Source of the DNA: Methanolobus mangrovi
GTDB taxonomy: Archaea; Halobacteriota; Methanosarcinia; Methanosarcinales; Methanosarcinaceae
NCBI RefSeq assembly: GCF_031312535.1
Contig: NZ_CP133594.1
Location: forward strand, 186,001-250,000
DNA: 64,000 nt
Direction: 5' to 3'
Within the stretch, counting starts at the first letter, position 1. Each line of letters starts with the position of its first letter. Both the position numbers and the translations under genes were made by a program. A model generated the notes under the pieces. The model ran no database searches. It saw nothing but the letters and a program-made list of their open reading frames with translations, and had not been told where the DNA came from. Of this stretch, positions 20,884 through 49,295 are shown in pieces.

Positions 20884-21078
20884 GGGGCTGTGGCCTAGCC
20901 CGGCATGGCGATGGGCTCCAGCGGATAAATGATGAGCAACGGGTCTACTGAGACTAACCCGACGGGGTTGGTTTGTGAGGAACCGTTGGAGCACTGATAT
21001 GTGCTCATAAACTGAAGGCTGTTAATGCAGCTGTTCGGAGAGACCCGTCGATCGTGAGTTCGAATCTCACCAGCCCCA
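20884..21078 (+). tRNA. trnW: tRNA-Trp (CCA) with intron
   Basis: Acceptor GGGGCTG (20884-20890) pairs with CAGCCCC (21071-21077), discriminator A 21078, no encoded CCA. D arm GCC/GGC, anticodon stem ATGGG (20911-20915) with CCCGT (21044-21048), anticodon CCA at 20918-20920, T arm GTGAG-TTCGAAT-CTCAC. The intron runs from about 20922 to 21042, after position 37, and holds a C/D-box guide RNA. Confidence 0.95.
20922..21042 (+). ncRNA. C/D-box guide RNA inside the tRNA-Trp intron
   Basis: Box C is ATGATGA (20929-20935), D' is CTGA (20948-20951), a C'-like TTGTGAGG follows, and D is CTGA (20994-20997). The D' guide ACGGGTCT pairs with 21041-21048, placing the fifth base on C39 (21044). The D guide GGAGC region pairs with the anticodon loop, placing the fifth base on C34 (20918). 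This matches the known euryarchaeal tRNA-Trp intron that directs 2'-O-methylation at positions 34 and 39 in its own precursor. Confidence 0.9.
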
Positions 21079-22397: not shown

Positions 22398-22476
22398 GTT
22401 TCATTGTCGGGATAAGTCCCGTGGGAATGTAGCTTTACAAAAGCTGAACCGTGAAACTAGAAATGAAACTAAGGTG
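22396..22476 (+). promoter_or_regulatory. Structured leader RNA upstream of L15e
   Basis: Within 75 bases there are two perfect local hairpins, CGGGA-TAAG-TCCCG (22408-22421) and AGCTTT-ACA-AAAGCT (22431-22445), enclosed by GTTTCATT (22398-22405) pairing with AATGAAAC (22462-22469). The same 5' strand can instead pair its first six bases with TGAAAC at 22452-22457. The closing stem ends one base before the AAGGTG ribosome binding site (22471-22476). A translational control element is plausible; not a family I recognise. Confidence 0.5.
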
Positions 22477-45132: not shown

Positions 45133-45984
45133 TCAGGAGCTCATGTCAATTCTTTGCCCTTTGGCCCAGAGCTCCTCGAATTTATCTTTCAGTTTCCCTG
45201 CATATTCCTTGTCATATACTTTCAATTCCCCAAAGACCTTTTTTGGAGAAAGGGGATCAGGAATAGGTATGTGTGTAATGTATTCATCGATCAGTATGAA
45301 GTCATATTCACAATCAAGGATCTTTACATCGATGTTTTTCTTAATAATGCTTCTAAGGGAAAGGTCGTCTACTTGTTCGATCTTATCTTTAAGTGCAGTC
45401 AGGAAAAGCTCCTCAGGTATAATGGTCCTGATCTTTATTCCCTTCTCTGCCGCTTTAATGAATTCATCAATAACCGTAGGGATAAAAGTCTTTGGATCGA
45501 TGCATTTTTCTTTTTCCAATATCTTTTTCAATTTGGCAGGTTTGACATGCAGGATCTCTTTTTCAGTTTCTTCCAGCATATTTTTGATATTCTTTATAAT
45601 GTCCTCTTCACCTATCAAAGTAGACCAAAACTGTAATTCTGTATGTTCGGGCTGGGAAATGTCTGAAAATCTGGTTTCCAGCTCTGCAACTTTCAATTTG
45701 AAATCATCCAGCTCATTTTTCGTATCTTCCTCTTTTTTATTGTAGAGGTTATTCAGGGCTATCTTTGGTTTAACTGCCTTGTATTTCCTGGGTCTTGATC
45801 TCTGGAATTCAACAAGCCCCATGTTATTAAGATTGGAAAGTACTTCGTATATCTTTCCAACAGGTATGTCTGATCTGCGTGACAGATCCTGGGCACCTGT
45901 AATTCCTTCTTTTAATAAGGTTGCATACGCAGAAGCTTCGTATTTTGTAAGTCCCAGATCTCTTAATGCTCTTTCATTGTCCAT
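45133..45984 (-). CDS. TrmB-family transcriptional regulator (first copy)
   Basis: 283 residues: N-terminal TrmB winged helix (LRDLGLTKYEASAYATLLKEGITGAQDLSRRSDIPVGKIYEVLSNLNNMGLVEFQRSRPRKYKAVKP, residues 5-73), a coiled-coil linker, and a phospholipase-D-like ligand domain (about 110-280). Related proteins sense sugars or other small molecules. On the minus strand its promoter (CCTTTATAG) contains the 12-base motif TTAAAACAACTA in reverse, which also occurs by the RND exporter start. It may therefore regulate both. Spacing to the exporter is about 930 bases. Confidence 0.85.
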   Translation of the reverse strand: MDNERALRDLGLTKYEASAYATLLKEGITGAQDLSRRSDIPVGKIYEVLSNLNNMGLVEFQRSRPRKYKAVKPKIALNNLYNKKEEDTKNELDDFKLKVAELETRFSDISQPEHTELQFWSTLIGEEDIIKNIKNMLEETEKEILHVKPAKLKKILEKEKCIDPKTFIPTVIDEFIKAAEKGIKIRTIIPEELFLTALKDKIEQVDDLSLRSIIKKNIDVKILDCEYDFILIDEYITHIPIPDPLSPKKVFGELKVYDKEYAGKLKDKFEELWAKGQRIDMSS

Positions 45985-46037
45985 ATTTTCACTGTTTGGT
46001 TGTTTTTTTACGGGTGAAATGTTTATCAGGTTCTAAG

Positions 46038-46049
46038 TTAAAACAACTA
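46038..46049 (+). promoter_or_regulatory. Shared motif TTAAAACAACTA, copy 1
   Basis: The complement TAGTTGTTTTAA follows the TATA box CCTTTATAG of the minus-strand trmB gene. An identical 12-mer is at 46867-46878 before the RND exporter. Candidate operator. Confidence 0.45.
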
Positions 46050-46177
46050 TAAAGGTGTTTTTAATATGCATGTAATTTGACTAGTTCTCACAGGGTCATC
46101 TTTATAAGTGTGCGAAACATCGACATACTTGACGATACATAGTCATCAATTTGTAGTAAACTCATTAAAGGTGTTTT

Positions 46178-46342
46178 ATGATGCGATCAAATTTAGAAAA
46201 TCCGAAAAGACTGATATCTTCCGTTGAAATATTAAAAGCTCATGTGGAAGATCTGCCTGTTCGGAACCTTGATACTGATTGGATAAAGGGAAATAAAGTA
46301 GACCTTAACTTATTGATGAAAGACCGGCACCCAAGGATTTGA
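46178..46342 (+). CDS. Possible small protein, 54 residues
   Basis: ATG 46178 to TGA 46340-46342, MMRSNLENPKRLISSVEIL..., polar with no membrane span or Cys. AAAGGTG (46168-46174) lies a few bases upstream and a TATA-like TTTATAAG is at 46100-46107, giving a normal leader length. I recognise no family. It could be a regulator fragment or a real small protein; coding-like amino acid content favours real. Confidence 0.4.
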   Translation: MMRSNLENPKRLISSVEILKAHVEDLPVRNLDTDWIKGNKVDLNLLMKDRHPRI

Positions 46343-46578: not shown

Positions 46579-46591
46579 CGATATATAGAAA
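46579..46591 (+). promoter_or_regulatory. TATA element for the candidate RNA
   Basis: CGATATATAGAAA places an expected transcription start near 46611, about 13 bases before the first stem of the RNA fold at 46624. Confidence 0.45.
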
Positions 46592-46610
46592 CACTTATCT
46601 ACTAATAATG

Positions 46611-46760
46611 CAGTTGTACTGTTGTGTACCATCAACCACACGCTTGTCGTGTAGTTAGTACCACCCTATCCAACCCCCAAACGAGGCATCCTTTCCAGGA
46701 TGTCTCAAAACCTATTCACTATATTTTATAGCAGAATGTTGATGGTGCATTCCTCTCTCT
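46611..46760 (+). ncRNA. Candidate structured RNA with a three-way junction
   Basis: A 13-bp closing stem joins 46624-46636 to 46738-46750 (core ACCATCAAC with GTTGATGGT, two G-U pairs at the outer end). Inside lie ACACG-CTTGT-CGTGT (46638-46652) and a 10-bp hairpin GAGGCATCCT-TTCC-AGGATGTCTC (46683-46706). The 46634-46636 bases could pair alternatively with 46654-46656, extending the first hairpin. The 5' end fits the TATA box at 46579; the 3' side is T-rich. It could be an independent small RNA or the exporter's leader. No family recognised. Confidence 0.55.
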
Positions 46761-46830
46761 TCATAGTTTCATTATTATGCCACTGCTTACGATTCTGTTT
46801 TAACTTTTAATCAGTTTATTAATGGGTAAA

Positions 46831-46845
46831 ATCCTTATATAGAAA
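46831..46845 (+). promoter_or_regulatory. TATA box of the RND operon
   Basis: ATCCTTATATAGAAA is a strong BRE/TATA match. The start expected near 46862 is next to the motif TTAAAACAACTA at 46867-46878, an arrangement that suits repression. Confidence 0.5.
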
Positions 46846-46866
46846 AACATGTTATTAAGGCTCAAA

Positions 46867-46878
46867 TTAAAACAACTA
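46867..46878 (+). promoter_or_regulatory. Shared motif TTAAAACAACTA, copy 2
   Basis: Exact copy of the 12-mer in the trmB promoter at 46038-46049, here at the expected RND start site. Confidence 0.45.
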
Positions 46879-46916
46879 ATACAGAGTTTTTTTATTATCA
46901 TAATTAAACATAAGGA

Positions 46917-49295
46917 GTGTTTGTCATAAAAAACATCTTTGAAAAACTGGGTGTCTTCATTGAAGACAATACGATACCTATCCTGCTAATCACGTTTCTT
47001 CTCGTGATTATTTCATTTCAGGGTGCCCAGTACATAGGGATGGCATCAGGGACTGATACTTTTGTAGATAAGAACTCTCAATTGTACCAGAATTATGATC
47101 ATCTTTACCAGAATCTCTTTGGCACCGAATCAATTGTAATAATGATTGAAGGCACTGATGTAACAAATCCTGAACTTCTCAAGGCAATGGACAGAGCATA
47201 CGAGTCCACAGTCAATATTCCCGGAGTAATTCAAGTCAATTCCCCATCATCTATAATCAAAGATGCTAATTATGAGATGACTGGGCGGAGTGAAATCCCG
47301 GATGATGGAGAAGTGATCGATGAAATTATCAGTTCATCAGTTCCAGCATATTATCTTCCTGATGAAACTCATGCTATTATGTCTGTAGTCGTTGAAGCAA
47401 CTACCTCAGATGATACGAAGGAGGAAATACTCAGGGAAACCAGAACATCTGTTGAAATGGCAGATTTCCCTGGGGATTATAATGTAATTGTGACGGGAGA
47501 TCCTGCTTTTATGGTCGAAATGAATGAAGCAATGAATTCCAGCATGGGTACATTGCTCATGATCTCAATTCTCCTCATGGTAGTAGTGCTATATCTTGTC
47601 TTCAAACATGTAAGGTGGAGACTTCTTCCGCTTCCAATAGTCATACTTGGTATTATTTTCACTTTTGGAGCCATGGGTTATCTGGACATCCCAATGACGA
47701 TGGTTTCCATGTCTGCCTTCCCGGTACTTATTGGACTTGGCATCGATTACGCTATTCAGTTCCATAATCGTATTGAAGAAGAACTGGAGCATGGTACCAG
47801 TGATGAACAGGCAGTAATTAACACCATCAAGCATACCGGTCCTGCAGTTCTGATCGCACTGATAATAACTGCACTTGGTTTCTTCTCATTGTTTACATCA
47901 ACTGTTCCAATGATACAGGATTTCGGAAAACTTCTGATGATCGGTATCGTGATGTGTTTCTTAGCCTCATTGTTTGTAGGGGTTACAGTACTATACGGCT
48001 TCCATAAAATTTCAGAGAAAAATATACTCTCTAAAATAGGGCTGAAAAAGCAATCTTCTAAGAAAAAAGTATCTGTAATGGAACAATCTGAACATGAACC
48101 GGATTTCCTTGAAAAGGCGCTTAAAGGCATATCTGGTTTTTCGATGAAGCATTCAGTACTGGTTATAGCAATTGCAGGTTCCCTTTGTGTTGGTGGACTT
48201 TATGCAGATACTCTGGTCTCTATTCAGACCGATACACAAACCTTTGTACCCCAGGATCTTCCTGCATTGATCGATCTTACACACATGGGCGAAATATTGG
48301 GTGGAGAAGATCAATTAAACCTGATAATAAAGACTGATGACAACACAGATCCGGAACTACTTGAATGGATAGATGAGTTCTCACAGCATGAAGTAGGGGG
48401 AAGGAGTCATATTTACGGCTCAAATAGCATTATTGATCTTATAAAGGCCCAGAACGGTGGAGAAATCCCTGAGAGTTCAGCAGAGGTTGCAGCGTTGTAT
48501 GAACAGATACCTGACGCTCAAAAGGAACGTTATCTTAACGGAAATTCCATACTTCTGGTCAACCTTGAGATTGGCAATGCAATGAGTGAGCTTGGACTGA
48601 TGGGTATCGGAGACCTCTCAGATATAGTGGAAGACGATATCCTCTGGATGGCACCTCCTCCGGGAGCAGAAGTAACCATAACCGGAAACTCTGTTGTTTT
48701 TGTAGAGGTTATAGGTGCTTTGACATCCGGCAGAACCATGATGACATTACTGGGAATCATATTGGTTTTTGCAGGTCTGCTTGTGATATACCGTGATCTG
48801 TTGAAGGCTTTAACTCCGGTGATAACCATGATAATGGTAGTTGGCTGGTCTGGAGGTCTCATGTATTACACAGGTCTGGAATATACCCCCATGACCGCAA
48901 CCCTTGGTGCGCTTATCCTGGGTGTTGGTTCAGAATATGCAATCCTTATGATGGAGCGCTATTTCGAAGAAAAGGATAAAGGTGCAGATCCCGAACAGGC
49001 AATGGAAGAAGCAAGTGTGAAGATTGGAAAAGCCATCGTCACATCTGGTGCAACCACTGTGTTTGGTTTTTCTGCATTGATAGCATCACCATTCAGTATT
49101 ACCAGCAATTTTGGCCTGATAACAGTTATAGACGTATTCCTGGCTCTGCTGGCTACGTTTGTGATCTTCCCTCCCGTAATTGTCACACTTGACAAATTCA
49201 AGGAAAAAAGAAGAGCACATGCAGCGATCAGCCGCAAATCCAAACTCATTGATACACGTGAATCAAATACCATTCCGGAGGTCATAACCACATGA
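46917..49295 (+). CDS. RND-superfamily exporter (HAE3-like, MMPL type)
   Basis: 792 residues in two homologous halves. Each has one membrane helix, a large external domain and a cluster of five to six spans; the second halves show VLIGLGIDYAIQFHNRIEEELEHG and LGVGSEYAILMMERYFEEKDKG, the acidic RND segments. Hydrophobe/amphiphile efflux-3 type transporters in archaea are proton-driven; the cargo is unknown. The only canonical start is GTG 46917, overlapped by AAGGAG; translation at ATA 46926 (ATA AAA AAC) would match the site better. The stop overlaps the ATG of the next gene. Confidence 0.9.
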   Translation: MFVIKNIFEKLGVFIEDNTIPILLITFLLVIISFQGAQYIGMASGTDTFVDKNSQLYQNYDHLYQNLFGTESIVIMIEGTDVTNPELLKAMDRAYESTVNIPGVIQVNSPSSIIKDANYEMTGRSEIPDDGEVIDEIISSSVPAYYLPDETHAIMSVVVEATTSDDTKEEILRETRTSVEMADFPGDYNVIVTGDPAFMVEMNEAMNSSMGTLLMISILLMVVVLYLVFKHVRWRLLPLPIVILGIIFTFGAMGYLDIPMTMVSMSAFPVLIGLGIDYAIQFHNRIEEELEHGTSDEQAVINTIKHTGPAVLIALIITALGFFSLFTSTVPMIQDFGKLLMIGIVMCFLASLFVGVTVLYGFHKISEKNILSKIGLKKQSSKKKVSVMEQSEHEPDFLEKALKGISGFSMKHSVLVIAIAGSLCVGGLYADTLVSIQTDTQTFVPQDLPALIDLTHMGEILGGEDQLNLIIKTDDNTDPELLEWIDEFSQHEVGGRSHIYGSNSIIDLIKAQNGGEIPESSAEVAALYEQIPDAQKERYLNGNSILLVNLEIGNAMSELGLMGIGDLSDIVEDDILWMAPPPGAEVTITGNSVVFVEVIGALTSGRTMMTLLGIILVFAGLLVIYRDLLKALTPVITMIMVVGWSGGLMYYTGLEYTPMTATLGALILGVGSEYAILMMERYFEEKDKGADPEQAMEEASVKIGKAIVTSGATTVFGFSALIASPFSITSNFGLITVIDVFLALLATFVIFPPVIVTLDKFKEKRRAHAAISRKSKLIDTRESNTIPEVITT

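Follow-up and report, generated by a model that had tools for sequence, protein, structure and literature searches.

Genes and features of the locus

The window analysed here is a 64,000-nt stretch of the Methanolobus mangrovi genome (G000). The region under study lies between a divergently transcribed gene for a TrmB-family regulator and a gene for an RND exporter of the HAE3/MMPL family (Table 1). The TrmB gene also stays beside the RNA described below in genomes G041, G064 and G048. The exporter gene seemed to begin at a non-canonical AUH codon, ATA at 46926-46928, 7-8 nt after the Shine-Dalgarno (SD) sequence (46910-46940). Its relatives have ATA, ATC or ATT at this position, and nine of the 16 readable orthologues had no in-frame ATG, GTG or TTG between the last stop and the AUH codon. 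A paralogue starts with ATG. A comparable start codon is the AUU of bacterial infC.

An imperfect inverted repeat, TTAAAACAACTA..GTTTTT(TT)A, occurred upstream of the TrmB gene (46028-46062) and in the 5′ region of the exporter (46864-46896). Both sites are conserved in relatives, and judging from the sequence, the shared repeat is a possible TrmB operator. Positions 46178-46342, between the TrmB gene and the RNA, could be an ORF of 54 codons; its SD (AAAGGTG) is good. Elsewhere in the window we noted known features: a tRNA whose intron holds a C/D box RNA (Rfam sR3; 20884-21078) and the eL15 leader (22408-22455).

Table 1. Features of the region between the TrmB gene and the exporter gene.
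Feature	Position	Strand	Remarks
TrmB-family regulator, divergent upstream neighbour	45133..45984	-	Pfam TrmB, E 4e-22
Operator-like motif TGTCGATATATAGAAA	46576..46591	+	Abuts BRE; near-palindromic CKATWWATMG core
Predicted BRE/TATA of the RNA gene (GAAACAC-TTATCTAC)	46588..46603	+	Conserved RAARGNTTATYTACTAA
Conserved sRNA core, ~90 nt	46623..46712	+	Predicted start 46622-46626; covariance models R1/R2
5′ hairpin	46623..46663	+	UG/CA + GUAC/GUAC (46626-46629/46658-46661), AAC/GUU (46634-46636/46654-46656), ACACG/CGUGU
Closing stem	46624-46636 with 46738-46750	+	13 bp, 2 of them G-U
5-bp hairpin (ACACG/CGUGU)	46638-46642/46648-46652	+	
C-rich linker GUACCACCCUAUCCAACCCCCAAAC	46658..46682	+	Candidate pairing seed
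3′ hairpin GAGGCAUCCU-UUCC-AGGAUGUCUC	46683..46706	+	99% of cells paired
10-bp hairpin	46683-46692/46697-46706	+	Loop UUCC
Post-hairpin region	46707..46726	+	U-rich (CCUGUUUU) in most homologues, weak in this genome
3′ arm of the 13-bp closing stem	46738..46750	+	Best seen as lineage-restricted extension; also G058, G044
Separate promoter of the exporter operon (GGGTAAAATCCTTATATAG)	46822..46842	+	Conserved in 16/16 aligned genomes
HAE3/MMPL-family RND exporter	46926..49295	+	TIGR00921, E 1.1e-228; Pfam MMPL; RNA-syntenic in 19 genomes

A conserved RNA of two hairpins

The original prediction was a new structured RNA with a three-way junction, in which a closing stem encloses a 5-bp and a 10-bp hairpin. 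All of these helices were recovered in place. The plus strand of the region folded to -43.2 kcal/mol, compared with -26.2 ± 3.4 kcal/mol for shuffled sequences (z = -5.0; none of 200 shuffles was as good). Folding of the minus strand was weaker (z = -2.6). An extra small hairpin was predicted inside the closing stem at about 46715-46731, which makes four arms, not three, at the predicted junction. The first hairpin had also been said to compete with the closing stem for three bases. We confirmed these two folds, the alternative being the pairing of AAC with GUU, and the comparison of homologues showed that this pairing belongs to the conserved one of the two.

Alignment with the exporter start revealed one conserved block, 46623-46712, followed by little conservation until the exporter promoter. 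Among 20 sequences, 8 of the 26 pairs were altered on both sides (0 of 500 shuffles) and standard pairs made up 94.5% of cells; the covariation score was 0.147, against 0.092 in shuffled and no more than 0.051 in slid controls, in an alignment that was fitted to the model and hence biased towards it. Five doubly altered pairs were located in the inner helix of the 5′ hairpin and three in the 3′ hairpin. Folding of single sequences gave the identical two-hairpin architecture in 19 homologues. The inner helices were wholly different among homologues (CACGGCAAA/UUUGUCGUG and CAAU/AUUG types), with GUAC and GUACCACC retained. The claim of a new structured RNA with compensatory changes was thus borne out by homologue covariation. 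It also held that no known family is present: nothing at the element reached the gathering threshold in Rfam 15, and the best weak matches were at chance level. No Rfam snoRNA matched the element at threshold, and the alignment of homologues contained neither the conserved RUGAUGA/CUGA of a box C/D guide RNA nor the 3′ ACA of an H/ACA one.

The C-rich linker, GUACCACCCUAUCCAACCCCC, was almost invariant among homologues. It was the most conserved single-stranded part, and its conservation exceeded that of the hairpin sequences. It is unpaired except for its first 6 nt, which supply the 3′ strand of the pairs closing hairpin 1. The region after the 3′ hairpin is likely the 3′ end of the RNA in most species, where we infer termination from the sequence. 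The U-tract was weak in this genome and in G058.

The closing stem was found in few genomes. Its duplex was calculated at -20.0 kcal/mol in this genome, -16.2 kcal/mol in G058 and -19.3 kcal/mol in G044 (0 of 200 shuffles each), and it was not above shuffles in the 14 other homologues tested. Because the 13-bp stem and its 3′ arm occur in only 3 of the 17 homologues tested, the three-way junction was rejected as the defining fold of the family. The three genomes did not form a clade on the exporter tree: G044 was apart from G000 and G058, and G050, the sister of G000, had no closing stem. The stem is best seen as a lineage-restricted extension. In the genomes that have it, the closed form was favoured over the conserved form by 11-14 kcal/mol (about 14 kcal/mol in this genome), and the conserved form would fold first in a growing transcript.

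Promoters and the operator-like motif

The RNA had been proposed to start near 46611, downstream of a TATA box at 46579. That TATA box is probably wrong, and the conserved BRE/TATA listed in Table 1 fits better. From its sequence, GATATATA at 46580 is more likely part of the operator-like motif. The promoter consensus upstream of the RNA was RAARG-YTTATYTACTAA, and the TATA-to-RNA distance was near-constant among homologues. The TATA of the diverged G052 homologue reads TTTATATAT. Judged from the conserved promoter, the RNA should start at about 46623, at the TGTGTACC position, instead of 46611. The spacing agrees with the promoter-TSS spacing of 19-22 nt in M. psychrophilus, a Methanolobus (PMC5378194).

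By sequence evidence, the RNA promoter is separate from those of the neighbouring genes. The original prediction had allowed for an independent sRNA or a leader. As the exporter has its own conserved promoter, the former is favoured and the latter is not. The RNA gene has its own BRE/TATA, and the RNA has a 3′ hairpin followed by U-rich sequence, which also points to an independent sRNA.

In about 20 homologues, the operator-like motif occupies a conserved place in the promoter; relatives have the variants CTATTTATCG or CGATAAATAG. The 15-base pattern had only six sites in the whole genome. They comprised the sRNA promoter, position 46131, the starts of two MacB/COG1361 exporter operons and two others. 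The second copy in this region (46131-46145) reads GACGATACATAGTCA, and the copies at the MacB/COG1361 operons are at L068 and L070.

Distribution

We searched 112 genomes of the family and obtained 15 clear matches in addition to the window itself, each of them in Methanolobus. Exact linker matches were found in M. psychrotolerans, M. vulcani, M. bombayensis and M. profundi. The covariance model R1, built on block 46623-46712, found the RNA in 20 of the 27 genomes of the genus, and model R2 in 22 of 27, two of these weak. With the diverged copy at the equivalent locus in G052 added to those of R1, homologues were present in 21 of 27 Methanolobus genomes. The RNA lies directly upstream of the exporter in 19 genomes. 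In G051 it retains the TrmB/ClpB side, where the contig stops, and in G049 it is located away from the exporter.

When R1 and R2 were applied to the whole family and order, no homologue was found in the family outside Methanolobus and the genus g10 (model matches in G036, 1.4e-6, and G033, 0.003). R2 confirmed the g10 matches over 186 genomes of the order, and its only new matches were weak ones in G040 and G055. The plasmid records contained no match to the RNA. G005 has a 19-nt exact match to the linker next to a gene for a corrinoid protein (L024/L080), with the remainder of the RNA missing. G042 has a weak second model match (L064) with unrelated hairpins and the linker CCCTATCCAAACCC, possibly a paralogous sRNA.

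The matches in g10 and in G040/G055 fall in the leaders of MacB-type operons, which suggests common descent with the sRNA or a shared binding partner. MacB leaders (L143, L145, L147, L149, L152) are long, with several hairpins and C-rich linkers. After them comes a conserved small ORF (about 50-60 codons, KLSPEQ-like end), and then the MacB ATPase gene. A switch that sequesters the SD may exist in G040/G055 (L134/L135, L142/L144), where the 3′ arm GAUGCCUC of a leader hairpin could base-pair with GGAGGCAU, the RBS downstream. Long C/A-rich loops, e.g. AGGCCGGG..UACCACCA..CCAACCAACC..CCGGCC, were also seen on other intergenic stems of Methanolobus (L184, L185, L191; L192, L193), which are possibly further sRNAs of similar style.

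The linker and Shine-Dalgarno sites

Target scans covered the first 2.0 Mb of the genome, with gene starts from a simple script. We ranked the k-mers in SD windows without bias, by how strongly they were enriched before genes whose product carries an N-terminal membrane or signal segment. GGGTGG, AGGGTG and GGTGGT were the top three of 941 6-mers, and AGGGTGG and GGGTGGT the top two of 465 7-mers. These k-mers are pieces of AGGGTGGT, the complement of the linker ACCACCCU. Membrane or signal genes made up 8 of the 9 genes with AGGGTGG and 8 of the 10 with GGGTGGT, compared with 20% overall. The linker-complementary AGGGUGGU was the most enriched SD k-mer before genes for membrane or secreted proteins in this genome. 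SDs of this type mostly precede membrane and secreted proteins, namely the COG1361 protein of a MacB operon, MnhE, lipoproteins and secY. The RBS of one lipoprotein gene showed an 11-nt exact complement to the linker.

The bulk complementarity of the linker to initiation regions in the first 2.0 Mb was not above that of shuffled linkers. A single strong antisense target was rejected, as the rest of the genome contained no site exactly complementary to the 15-nt core of the linker. Matches with two mismatches included GGTTTGATAGGGTCG at four places, which are probably 23S rRNA copies. In G061, which has the RNA, 5 of the 8 genes with a linker-complement SD encode membrane or secreted proteins, and secY, COG1361 and MnhE recur. 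In G043, which has no RNA at the exporter locus and which we take to be the M. psychrophilus dRNA-seq strain, this was the case for 2 of 4 such genes, with the secY SD unchanged. Therefore, the RNA may have no part in the SD bias. Considering the script-called starts, the few AGGGTGG genes and the shuffle and G043 results, the target claim is a lead only, and the idea of envelope targets is suggestive only.

Interpretation of the RNA

The family is real and conserved, of a known kind and uncatalogued in Rfam 15, with a function that we infer. In our best explanation, 46623-46712 would be an independently transcribed sRNA conserved across Methanolobus. Its two hairpins would keep the C-rich linker unpaired, and the linker would pair with the SD regions of target mRNAs and block ribosome binding, as in M. 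mazei sRNA162. Targets would likely carry AGGGUGGU-type SDs, here mostly before membrane or secreted proteins. The motif in its promoter might put the sRNA under common control with exporter operons. In three genomes, including this one, the 3′ extension may close a larger branched fold as a second conformation. Judging from the sequence, transcription of 46623-46712 itself is highly probable, and a separate RNA rather than a leader is very likely. Pairing of the linker with SD sites falls a little short of an even chance, and envelope-type targets are rather doubtful. Taken as a whole, an independent sRNA whose linker masks the SD sites of its targets seems to us an even bet.

A role in protein binding would equally explain why the linker is conserved. 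An RNA-binding protein could recognize the C-rich ACC/CCAACC linker, and as similar linkers occur between the hairpins of MacB leaders, the sRNA could titrate the protein off these leaders, with a CsrB-like logic. In Methanolobus, linkers of the form GUACCA..CCAACC..CCC connect the successive hairpins of the MacB leaders, and the weak model matches outside the exporter locus lie in such leaders in two genera, which keeps the idea alive. However, the loose linker pattern was near control level and not clearly enriched in 27 genomes, no candidate protein was found, and the scores behind the homology of the leaders to the sRNA were weak. We consider this role unlikely.

The tight synteny with the exporter might instead imply a cis-acting leader or sensor, a riboswitch or attenuator in which transcription from about 46623 reads through to the exporter, gated by the alternative folds. 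The large energy gap between these folds here and the position of the element directly upstream of a MacB gene in g10 are consistent with it. Against it stand the conserved exporter promoter between the RNA and the gene, the U-rich sequence after the second hairpin in most species, the copy away from the exporter in G049 and the restriction of the closing-stem switch to three homologues. Such a leader is improbable. It is still more improbable that the closed four-arm RNA, first described as three-way, is the functional form. Its stem far exceeded shuffles in three genomes, and the extra inner hairpin was predicted in all three despite their differing sequence, but the form is missing in the other homologues tested, even in the nearest exporter relative, and is patchy on the exporter tree.

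The preferred reading of an independent, SD-masking sRNA can be compared with known systems. In the same genus, dRNA-seq of M. psychrophilus revealed 195 intergenic sRNA start sites (PMC5378194). In M. mazei sRNA162, an unstructured linker between stem-loops masks the RBS; this RNA has 191 nt, three stem-loops and a variable 39-nt linker, and its homologues were reported only in Methanosarcina (PMC3510493). It and the Methanolobus RNA are both intergenic and beside a regulator gene, with stem-loops flanking an unstructured linker. However, the Methanolobus RNA measures about 90 nt, has two hairpins and is best conserved in its linker. R1 and R2 gave no Methanosarcina match in the family and order, so the Methanolobus RNA does not belong to the sequence family of sRNA162. 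M. mazei sRNA154 and sRNA41 act in trans by blocking ribosome-binding sites and regulate nitrogen fixation and the ACDS operons (PMC5867862). Compared by description rather than by sequence, they share with our RNA the RBS blocking proposed for it and differ in those targets.

RybB and MicA are bacterial envelope-stress sRNAs that repress envelope mRNAs at the RBS. The proposed logic is similar: under common control with envelope functions, the sRNA would repress envelope mRNAs. The RNAs are not homologous, and the targets here are putative. In the fullest form of this idea, the sRNA would share an operator with the MMPL and MacB exporters and repress mRNAs of membrane and secreted proteins, including secY, through a linker akin to or derived from MacB leaders. 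We regard this form as a long shot. If it were true, the linker ACCACCCU of an envelope sRNA would pair with AGGGUGGU SDs. Targets are known for only a few archaeal sRNAs. The present RNA, conserved across a genus that has members in culture, offers a clear predicted seed, a short testable target list and an exporter neighbourhood. It could show whether Archaea balance the synthesis and export of envelope proteins via sRNAs.
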